Shown here: positions 27,494 to 30,927 of the stretch, one piece after another
Position numbering within the stretch: the first letter of the stretch is position 1
How the letters are laid out: each line of letters opens with the position of its first letter
DNA from: an uncultured Lentisphaeria bacterium
GTDB taxonomy: Bacteria > Verrucomicrobiota > Lentisphaeria > Victivallales > Victivallaceae
NCBI GenBank assembly: GCA_949298075.1
Contig: CASFVA010000006.1
Location: forward strand, 1 to 64,000
Direction of reading: 5' to 3'
DNA: 64,000 nucleotides
Program-made: the position numbers and the translations under genes
Notes under the pieces: model-generated
The model's input: the letters and a program-made list of their open reading frames with translations, nothing else
What the model was told of the DNA's origin: nothing
The model's database searches: none

Positions 27494-27536
27494 GAGTCCC
27501 TCCGGAATTTTCTCCGGCGGGACTCTTGATTTTTTG
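27494..27536 (+). terminator. Intrinsic terminator of the SNF2-family gene
   Basis: A perfect seven-pair outer stem (GAGTCCC 27494-27500 with GGGACTC 27519-27525) holds a second CCGG/CCGG stem and is followed by TTGATTTTTT. The downstream part of this element overlaps the next promoter. Confidence 0.75.
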
Positions 27537-27617: not shown

Positions 27618-29186
27618 ATGGCCGTAAAAATTGCATCCCCGGCGGCGCACCCGGTTCCGGACGGCGCCGTCGTGCCATGTGTTTCCCACCTCTGCGGCGC
27701 ACCCGGCGCCCGGCGGCAGGCTCCGGGATTTTGTTCCCGGCCGGAAACGTCCGCCGCGGCCGCCGCCGTCTGGCTGCTGGCCGGGCCACCGGCCGGGGCC
27801 GCTCCCCGGGTCATCACCGATGAAAAGCCGGAGAATGTCCGGTCCCTGCGCTTCGTTCAGGACGACGCCCAGGACTACATGGTCTCAAAGATCTATCAGC
27901 TCAAATATGTTCAGGCCAACGACATCACCCCGTTTGTCATGGGCATTGTCATGCGCTACAACCAGAATTCATCGGTCGGCTGCATCGAAACCGGCAACAA
28001 CCTCCAGCTTCTGACCGTGACCTGCCCGGAAAAACTCATGCCCTACGTCGATGACTTCATCGCCAAGGTCGACCGCAACATCCGGATCGACGGCAAAACT
28101 CCGGAGGATCCCATCCGGGGCACCGGCATCACCCGGGCGGTATACCGGCCTAAATTCCGCTCCGGCCAGGCCTTGCTGGATGTGCTGGTCAATTCGGTCA
28201 TCGGCGAAGGACCTTACGGCTCGGTCTACGCCTGGGATCAGAATTCCAACCAGATCTACTGGAAGGACAACAGCTCCAACACCCAGTATGTCTATGAGTT
28301 TCTCGGATTCCTCGACCGGCCGGCGCCGCAGATCACCTTTACCTTCAATCTCTATGAAGTACGGGAGAGCACGCTGCGGGATCTCGGGGTTGAGTACCTC
28401 GCCTGGAAAAACTGTCCCGGCCTCAACCTGTTTCAGGCCGGATTCGACGCCTTCAGCGTGACCTCCGGCGGCACGGCGGCCCTGCAGGCGATGTCCGGCC
28501 CCGTGGGCGGTTTTCTGTTTGCGCCGCAGTTCGACGCCAGCTTCATCCGGCTGCTCGGTCAGTCCGGCCACGCCGAAATCACCAATACCGCCACGCTGAC
28601 GGTGAGCAACTCCGACCGGGAATTCTACGAAATCTATTTCAATCCCCAGCTCCAGAACATCGTCAAGAGCAACAACGATCAGACCAGCGTCGGCGTCAGC
28701 GATCTCGGTCTGCCCGAAGGCTTCTATCAAGTTTATCTGCGGCTCAATCAGCCGATTGTCAACATCCACTACGGCCAGTCCCAGCCGGGATACGCTCCGG
28801 CGGAGGCCTTTGAGGTCAGCAACTACCGTCCCGGCGACTACGCCCGCTTTCCCGGCACCGTATTTTTCGGCTACGACCTCCAGACCGCCAACGTGGTCGA
28901 ACGCAACAACCTCGGCAGCGAACTGGTGGAAACCAGCCAGATCACTTCGGAAGCACTGCTCGAACTCGATCACGAAACCGTCATCGCTCAATGGGAAAAA
29001 AAGCAGGAGGTCGAACAAACCATCGGCATTCCGTGGCTCAGTCGGATTCCCGGTCTGAAGTACCTCTTCAGCACCACCACCACCAGCGTTGAAAACACCA
29101 AGGCCTACCTCACCGTCACCGCCCGGCTGCTCAATACGGCAGCGCCTGACGGCAAGGCGGCCGGAGAACTGATCCAGATCAAATAA
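27618..29186 (+). CDS. Secretin-like outer-membrane protein 1
   Basis: About 522 residues. An N-domain of the secretin type is seen around residues 75-150 (YQLKYVQANDITPFV ... KVDRN). The C-terminal half has the secretin-core pattern, with a two-strand repeat starting PQITFTFNLYEV and the closing block GIPWLSRIPGLKYLFSTTTTSVENTKAYL. Secretins form outer-membrane rings for type II secretion, type IV pili or phage release. The start is uncertain. The ATG at 27618 has GAGGAAG upstream, but the hydrophobic export segment (AAAAAVWLLAGPPAGAA) starts about 50 residues later, so a start further in, near a GTG at about 27672, is possible. It is paralogous to the next gene, 19 bp downstream. Confidence 0.7.
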   Translation: MAVKIASPAAHPVPDGAVVPCVSHLCGAPGARRQAPGFCSRPETSAAAAAVWLLAGPPAGAAPRVITDEKPENVRSLRFVQDDAQDYMVSKIYQLKYVQANDITPFVMGIVMRYNQNSSVGCIETGNNLQLLTVTCPEKLMPYVDDFIAKVDRNIRIDGKTPEDPIRGTGITRAVYRPKFRSGQALLDVLVNSVIGEGPYGSVYAWDQNSNQIYWKDNSSNTQYVYEFLGFLDRPAPQITFTFNLYEVRESTLRDLGVEYLAWKNCPGLNLFQAGFDAFSVTSGGTAALQAMSGPVGGFLFAPQFDASFIRLLGQSGHAEITNTATLTVSNSDREFYEIYFNPQLQNIVKSNNDQTSVGVSDLGLPEGFYQVYLRLNQPIVNIHYGQSQPGYAPAEAFEVSNYRPGDYARFPGTVFFGYDLQTANVVERNNLGSELVETSQITSEALLELDHETVIAQWEKKQEVEQTIGIPWLSRIPGLKYLFSTTTTSVENTKAYLTVTARLLNTAAPDGKAAGELIQIK

Positions 29187-29205
29187 CCCCGGAGCGACTT
29201 TCATC

Positions 29206-30927
29206 ATGAAACATCCGATTACCGCTTTTCTGGCGCTGGGCGGAGTGCTCGGTGCTTTCGCCAGTCCGGTTCCCGGCATTCCGCGGGATTCCAACACCGG
29301 AAACACCGGAGGCTACGACAGCACCCGCATCGAAGCACGGCTGGTCGTACCGGTGCAGGACAATACCAGGGTGGTCCACTTCATCCGCGACAACAACGAT
29401 CCGCGAGTCATCACCAAAACCTACGAGCTGAAGAACGTCGATCCCTATGAATTCCGCGACTACCTGCGTCAGATGGTGCAGTCCAAACGGGTGGGCAACA
29501 CTTCGCTGCAGCAGCAGTATCCATCCAACGCGCAGACGTCCGTCACCGTGAACGGCCAGACCGTCACGTTGCCGGTGACGGCCACGGTCAGCTCACCGGA
29601 ACTGGGCGCGGCCAGCGCGCAGCCGGGCTACACTCCGACGGTCCAGCTGGGCAGCAACACCGCCGTCGAATGCCTCAAATATGCGGACGGCACCGGACTG
29701 CTGATCGTCAGCGCCGAAGAATACCGCTTCCGGGATCAGCCGAACGGCATGGGCATCGACTCACTGGTCGCCAGGCTGGACAATTCCGAACTCGGAGCAC
29801 TCAGCTACGGCAGCCAGATGTTCATCTACATGCCCAAATTCGTGCCGGCCCGCAACCTGATGCCACTGATTGAGAACATGGGCATGAACATCAGCGACGT
29901 CACTGAATTGTGGCAGGGACAGGATCTGGTGGCTTATGACCCCGACCTCAACTGGCTGGTGTTCGACGTCGAAAACTACTCCTGCGCCAACATTGCCGCG
30001 ATGCTGGCCAAATACGATGTGCCGATTCCGCAGGTCCGGCTCCAAATCACCGTCTACGAGATCGACACTGAAAACGACGACAAGCTCGGACTGGACTTTC
30101 AATCCTGGAAAAACAACGAGGGCGTAGACCTTTTCTCCGCCGGCGGCCGTTACCGCAACAACTGGAACGCGCTCTACGACGCAACCGGACTCAACCGCGC
30201 CGCAGGTTCGGAACGCACCAGTTTTTACAACTTCAATCCGCGCTGGAACACCCGTTACATTGACTTCCTGACGTCCATCGGGAAGGCCCGGATCGCCCAT
30301 ACCGGGGAGCTCTGCATCCGCAACGCGTCATCGGCGGCTCTGAACCGCACCACCCAGATTTTTTACATGGACGACTCTGAACCGGCTCCCGGAAGCGAAA
30401 CCGACGCCGTTTTTCCCAACACCGGAGTGGGCCCCTACCAGCTTTTGTCAAACCTCATCGGCGCCGTCACCGGAACCGCCGTCACCGCGGATGAACCGGT
30501 CCGGATCGGCAAGGGCAACCAGCAAATCACCACCAAATCCACCGGCTACGGCTTTTCCATGCAGGTGGACGAGGTATCGGTCAACCTGGAGGAAACCAGG
30601 TTTAAAGTCAGCCTGAGCAACTCCAGCCTGATCGGCTTTCAATCCAGCGGAGCGCCCCGCATCGCCGCCGGCAACCGGATCAGTCAGGTGGTCAGCCTGC
30701 CGCACGGCAGGGACAGCTTCATCATCGGCGGATTGAAAAAGCAGGAGAGCGTCACTTCGCGCACCGGAGTGCCGTGGCTGATGGATATTCCCTACCTCGG
30801 TCACCTCTTTTCGACGAAATCAACCTCGGTCAAAAACTCCGAACTGGTGGTGGTCGCCAGCTGCCGCTGGGAGGCTCCTCCGGACAAGCCGGGGCTTCCG
30901 GCCCGGAGCCTCAACAAAACCCGCTGA
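29206..30927 (+). CDS. Secretin-like outer-membrane protein 2
   Basis: A 573-residue protein with a clean signal peptide (KHPITAFLALGGVLGAFAS) and two N-terminal secretin-type domains (KTYELKNVDPYEFRDYLRQ; FIYMPKFVPARNLMPLIE). The C-terminal secretin core reads PQVRLQITVYEID and ends with the diagnostic VSLPHGRDSFIIGGLKKQ, GVPWLMDIPYLGHLFSTKST and ELVVVASC. It is co-transcribed with its paralogue. No secretion ATPase, platform protein or pseudopilin gene lies in the window, so these two may serve machinery coded elsewhere or form an independent system. Function beyond secretin family is unknown. Confidence 0.82.
   Translation: MKHPITAFLALGGVLGAFASPVPGIPRDSNTGNTGGYDSTRIEARLVVPVQDNTRVVHFIRDNNDPRVITKTYELKNVDPYEFRDYLRQMVQSKRVGNTSLQQQYPSNAQTSVTVNGQTVTLPVTATVSSPELGAASAQPGYTPTVQLGSNTAVECLKYADGTGLLIVSAEEYRFRDQPNGMGIDSLVARLDNSELGALSYGSQMFIYMPKFVPARNLMPLIENMGMNISDVTELWQGQDLVAYDPDLNWLVFDVENYSCANIAAMLAKYDVPIPQVRLQITVYEIDTENDDKLGLDFQSWKNNEGVDLFSAGGRYRNNWNALYDATGLNRAAGSERTSFYNFNPRWNTRYIDFLTSIGKARIAHTGELCIRNASSAALNRTTQIFYMDDSEPAPGSETDAVFPNTGVGPYQLLSNLIGAVTGTAVTADEPVRIGKGNQQITTKSTGYGFSMQVDEVSVNLEETRFKVSLSNSSLIGFQSSGAPRIAAGNRISQVVSLPHGRDSFIIGGLKKQESVTSRTGVPWLMDIPYLGHLFSTKSTSVKNSELVVVASCRWEAPPDKPGLPARSLNKTR

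Follow-up and report, generated by a model that had tools for sequence, protein, structure and literature searches.

The 64,000-nucleotide stretch of DNA analysed here (the window) lies on contig C6 of an uncultured Victivallales genome from the phylum Lentisphaerota (G000; 2.33 Mb assembly, 75 contigs, 87% complete). It carries two adjacent genes, hereafter named A and B, that are separated by 19 bases and both encode secretin-like proteins. Secretins are textbook parts of export machines, in which they form the exits for proteins, pili and phages. The window's pair belongs to the set of related loci referred to below as group 1, and its features are as follows.

27618-29186, forward strand: gene A, secretin-like, first of the pair; mature protein of about 450 aa (Pfam Secretin; same-order group-1 orthologues)
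27879-28070, forward strand: first alpha/beta N-domain of gene A, without an N0 domain before it (AlphaFold model, residues 15-78)
28128-28313, forward strand: second alpha/beta N-domain of gene A (AlphaFold model, residues 98-159)
28887-29132, forward strand: C-terminal secretin block of gene A (PF00263, residues 424-505; alignments)
29206-30927, forward strand: gene B, secretin-like; 573-aa product with a hydrophobic leader at its N-terminus (Pfam Secretin; present in 47 Victivallales genomes)
29407-29778, forward strand: first N-domain of gene B with an inserted beta-rich, Ser/Thr/Gln-rich segment (AlphaFold model, residues 49-172)
29812-30015, forward strand: second alpha/beta N-domain of gene B (AlphaFold model, residues 184-251)
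30520-30858, forward strand: C-terminal part of the gene B secretin barrel, with a conserved GG motif (PF00263, residues 439-551)

Both genes had been predicted to end in a secretin-type closing block, and profile searches confirmed this. Against the Pfam Secretin family (PF00263), for which the curated cut-off is 27.5 bits, gene A scored 37-38.8 bits and gene B 59.7-60.3 bits. AlphaFold (AF2) models of the monomers, built from 65 homologues for A and 66 for B, were of moderate confidence, with a mean predicted local distance difference test score (pLDDT) of 69.8 and 70.9, respectively. At E<=0.001 they matched 49 (A) and 40 (B) chains of the PDB; among the matches listed all were secretins, led by GspD, XcpQ, PulD, PilQ, InvG, RcpA and phage pIV. 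In the predicted plan of A, two alpha/beta N-domains precede the barrel region; that of B is alike, with an insert in the first N-domain. The two proteins share 23% identity over 436 aa. Since their profiles align over nearly the entire length (probability 100%, E 1.6e-44), A and B are full-length paralogues, in line with the original prediction. The strong difference then noted between their N-terminal halves was real as regards sequence divergence and the inserted segment of B, but it does not reflect unrelated domains. At the same place in the C-terminal block, B reads FIIGGLKK and A reads VIAQWEK; the glycine pair of B (G489-G490 in alignment numbering) is nearly invariant, and the window's A lacks it.

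That gene A might be a decayed copy was rejected, as its open reading frame (ORF) is intact and under purifying selection. Most group-1 orthologues share 61-76% identity with its product, and two more distant ones share 48%. The dN/dS ratio was about 0.2 between the window's A and that of locus L032, with a median of about 0.07 for close group-1 pairs and about 0.18 in group 2, indicating purifying selection on both genes.

With B as the query, 157 confirmed relatives were retrieved from 84,980 species genomes. Eighty loci were kept, all from Lentisphaerota wherever the record names a lineage; nearly all have A immediately 5' of B in the same order, and about 60 more regions from relatives show the same arrangement. 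Automatic detection placed A immediately upstream at 137 of 143 B places, the remainder corresponding to contig ends and fused or split ORFs. Each complete A homologue that was examined is in turn followed immediately by a B. The B profile matched 47 of 195 genomes of the phylum, all 47 of them Victivallales, and none outside this order at E 1e-20. The A profile matched 57 of 60 Victivallales genomes, weak matches including B and other secretins. Genomes carry approximately one to six pairs, as counted by eye from strong A matches. In G000, a second pair is present on contig C26 and a third A is cut off by the end of contig C49; the cultured species Victivallis vadensis carries an orthologous pair (L031). 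A-B is a conserved unit restricted to Victivallales, and the earlier suggestion that it is specific to one lineage proved correct. The description of a tandem secretin pair as unusual applies to bacteria at large, but not to Victivallales, for which A-B is the norm, with several copies in a genome. In the Lentisphaerota strain zth2, two pairs lie in a row as A-B-A-B (L095:2277-9791), a recent tandem duplication.

The N0 domain is the link between secretins and inner-membrane machines. A Pfam search of A and B detected neither N0 nor Secretin_N, while the genome's own GspD (contig C48) gave matches to N0, to Secretin_N (two stretches) and to Secretin. The surroundings of the pair had been described as devoid of secretion machinery, which held true: the window's contig carries no ATPase or platform gene of a type II secretion system (T2SS) or of type IV pili (T4P), and a search of the window for a pilin-type FTLIE motif found none. 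We therefore rejected the locus as part of a T2SS/T4P cluster. Searching the genome for a partner ATPase, as originally proposed, located T2SS/T4P ATPases and platform proteins at C48 and C54 and no such ATPase on the window's contig. The T2SS-like cluster at C48 has its own secretin, and a T4P-type cluster at C11 contains two Amuc_1098-like secretins. The latter are adjacent (L023:2862-7850; 843 and 810 aa) and lie behind PilM/PilN-like genes, so that this T4P cluster also has a tandem secretin.

Comparison with known families placed A and B far under every NCBIfam secretin cut-off. Scores were 23.5 bits (A) and 71 bits (B) for the GspD equivalog (cut-off 351 bits), and 38.4 and 58.5 bits for the SctC family of type III secretion systems (cut-off 238 bits). 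With the T2SS secretins GspD, XcpQ and PulD, which gave the best PDB matches of both models, they share the secretin barrel, the preceding alpha/beta N-domains and a C-terminal block of the PWL..IP.L..LFST type; however, they lack N0, a Secretin_N match and adjacent gsp genes. The fold also recalls PilQ and Amuc_1098, the latter represented by the tandem in the T4P cluster, but A and B score below both family cut-offs, follow another domain plan and have unrelated neighbours rather than PilM/N/O-like ones. The filamentous phage secretin pIV (PDB 7ofh) is similarly short, with a TM-score on the target of 0.52/0.60, whereas A-B is chromosomal, paired and found beside nutrient importers. HofQ-type secretins have been proposed as an entry route for DNA and in that respect resemble what we suggest below. 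Unlike A and B, which are far below its cut-off, HofQ carries DNA with a pilus-like machine.

The gene neighbourhood of the paralogous pairs pointed to nutrient import. The second pair of G000 is located 64 bp before pstS (confirmed by TIGR00975, 372 bits), which is followed by pstC, pstA, pstB, phoU, phoB and phoR. We compared the positions of pstS in the 60 Victivallales genomes (31 loci, spread over 28 of them) with those of A-profile matches. A pair was found directly upstream of pstS at 12 of the 31 loci, in four families (genomes G000, G059, G009, G027, G051, G018, G022, G025, G016, G023, G002 and G020), for a chance expectation of about 0.05, which is our own estimate from about four pairs among about 2,700 genes and takes no account of the non-independence of related genomes. 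A tree of 90 non-redundant B proteins placed Pst-linked and Amt-linked pairs in several distant clades, the 12 pst-linked pairs alone being spread over several of them. Pairs lie beside AmtB and PII in three distant clades (L070, L120, where the genes are divergent, and L126, with the order PII-AmtB-c5-A-B, c5 being a small lipoprotein gene). Some pairs adjoin a sulfonate operon of the SsuA ATP-binding cassette (ABC) type. Others adjoin KdpC-KdpD (L125), FeoA-FeoB (L149), PiT (L163), a 2-aminoethylphosphonate-type binding protein (L151), amino-acid binding proteins (L116 and L166) or an aspartate-alanine antiporter (L162). Altogether, an importer-type neighbour was present at 24 of 67 non-redundant group-2 pairs.

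The lipoprotein c5 has a lipobox cysteine, a length of about 130-230 aa and a weak resemblance to DUF3887. When detected, it is nearly always immediately beside the pair and on the same strand (50 of 51 cases). For 42 group-1 loci there were 29 matches, located downstream of B or upstream of A, and for 100 group-2 loci there were 21, some loci in these counts being the same genome seen twice. In G000, c5 directly precedes the cut-off third A (C49:754-1101), and a weak match lies at C69. We regard c5 as a candidate pilotin or accessory protein. Within one clade of pairs, the order is always c5-A-B followed by a gene for a MarR-type regulator (L107, L109, L110, L111, L113, L144, L154 and L156, and also L104), which suggests dedicated regulation.

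The outer-membrane complement of the order was also surveyed. In 17 Victivallales genomes tested, no TonB receptor, Porin_O_P or Porin_4 member was detected, and Omp85 was present in all 17. In its proposed task, the entry of nutrients across the outer membrane, and in the location of its genes beside an inner-membrane importer, the pair would resemble phosphate-selective and other nutrient porins (Porin_O_P, OprP/OprO), to which its fold is unrelated.

From this gene context, we propose that A-B is a secretin channel for small nutrients that works without an inner-membrane motor, a reading to which we give an even chance. The sister secretins would act jointly as one outer-membrane channel. 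Through this pore, either open or gated, small nutrients would enter the periplasm, from which ordinary importers would take them up. Duplicated pairs have come to lie next to specific importers (Pst, AmtB, Kdp, Feo, PiT, sulfonate-type ABC and others), presumably for co-production, while the window's group-1 pair is probably a general-purpose copy that is not tied to one importer. The c5 lipoprotein, found beside most orthologous group-1 loci, would be a likely pilotin or plug. More tentatively, and with somewhat less confidence than in the channel itself, we suggest that Victivallales turned secretins into a multi-copy set of two-component pores for the entry of nutrients, with a given importer for each pair, and did so in genomes that yielded neither TonB receptors nor the tested standard porin families.

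Several observations weigh against this proposal. Both the pair and the tested porins are missing from genomes G043 and G031 and from the family f8, so there must be other pores. The window's own pair lacks an importer beside it, and no c5 was found next to it. Among the 67 group-2 pairs, 29 lack both kinds of labelled neighbour, importer and c5, and many neighbour labels come from visual inspection. The association with AmtB, seen at 3 of 52 loci, is modest, and a search for a Pho box before the pst-linked pairs, made with the E. coli consensus, gave no signal over shuffles. In a near-versus-far tally of Pfam neighbours, the distal control also held ABC genes and the signal was too dilute for the tally alone to demonstrate enrichment; as de-replication left most of the families with one member (25 families listed), it was replaced by the forward tests on PstS and AmtB. 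The AF2 models are a further limitation, being monomeric and of moderate confidence.

The secretin fold itself, and the presence elsewhere in the genome of T2SS/T4P ATPases and platform proteins, would fit a role in export. The pairs could be alternative secretins for these motors, releasing scavenging enzymes such as phosphatases and sulfatases that are made under starvation. There is a precedent in Caulobacter, in which protein secretion under phosphate starvation is known (PMC2996285). We nevertheless consider such a role unlikely, as A and B have no detectable N0, the T2SS and T4P clusters are equipped with their own secretins, and up to about six pairs occur in a genome. The neighbours also include importers for potassium, ammonium and ferrous iron, whose uptake, to our knowledge, needs no extracellular enzyme to be secreted; import is therefore favoured over export. 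The absence of N0, the separate secretins of the two clusters and the location of paralogous pairs beside importers also speak against the lineage-specific export system that had been envisaged for the window's pair.

The proximity to importers could alternatively reflect shared regulation, with A-B forming a closed envelope complex linked to starvation or stress, for instance in anchoring or as a surface structure. The MarR-type regulator gene that immediately follows B in one clade, the loss of the GG motif from the C-terminal block of A and the many pairs without an importer neighbour are all compatible with this. Different pairs, however, adjoin importers of different nutrients rather than belonging to one stress regulon, and we regard a closed complex as the least probable of the explanations considered. 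A further possibility, which opposes only the joint assembly of A and B, is that each of them builds a homomeric pore of its own with a distinct role, one of the two pores being assisted by a lipoprotein. An identity of just 23% and the lack of the GG motif in A would agree with separate pores, whereas the A-B order is invariant across Victivallales and in all paralogous copies. Because of this invariance, assembly of the two proteins together in a fixed ratio is suggested, and separate pores appear rather doubtful to us, though less so than a role in export.

Within the library of papers searched, none was found that deals with pairs of this kind in Lentisphaerota, with a nutrient-pore role of secretins or with a link between such pairs and pst. 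The crateriform outer-membrane complexes of planctomycetes have been the subject of speculation about macromolecule uptake, in a paper that does not mention secretins (PMC5394234). The fold of A and B is known; the function of a machine-free, multi-copy, importer-linked pair is probably new. If the nutrient channel proposed here is real, secretins would gain a second job beyond export. Such a channel would also hint at how Victivallales, among which are gut and rumen members, admit small nutrients without detectable TonB receptors or the tested porins.

At the window's locus, the pair is flanked upstream by an SNF2 helicase gene and downstream, on the opposite strand, by a gene for a CAT-family acetyltransferase. 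The ORF of gene A opens at 27534 with TTG, and an ATG follows at 27618; the exact start position is uncertain. The leader of gene A (27618-27836) is atypical in that the first ATG is not followed by a clear signal peptide, and it differs from that of its orthologues, which have a clear signal peptide directly 5' of a conserved VRxxxFxQDDAQ motif. This odd leader could come from the real start or from an assembly error.

Other arrangements recur around the pairs. Several Victivallales pst operons contain, between pstS and pstC, a conserved gene for a 115-aa small protein of Sm/Hfq-like appearance (L022:5650-5994 on contig C26 of G000). At L034, L040, L043 and L074, a gene for an amino-acid antiporter and a 760-790-aa gene lie after or before the pair; the antiporter of L074 matches the basic amino acid/polyamine type, and the neighbour set includes a match to Orn/Lys/Arg decarboxylase. 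These antiporter and decarboxylase surroundings look like an acid-resistance module. Finally, at L081, L082, L086, L087, L091, L098 and L100, the pair is convergent with iorAB, encoding indolepyruvate oxidoreductase, in a conserved arrangement.
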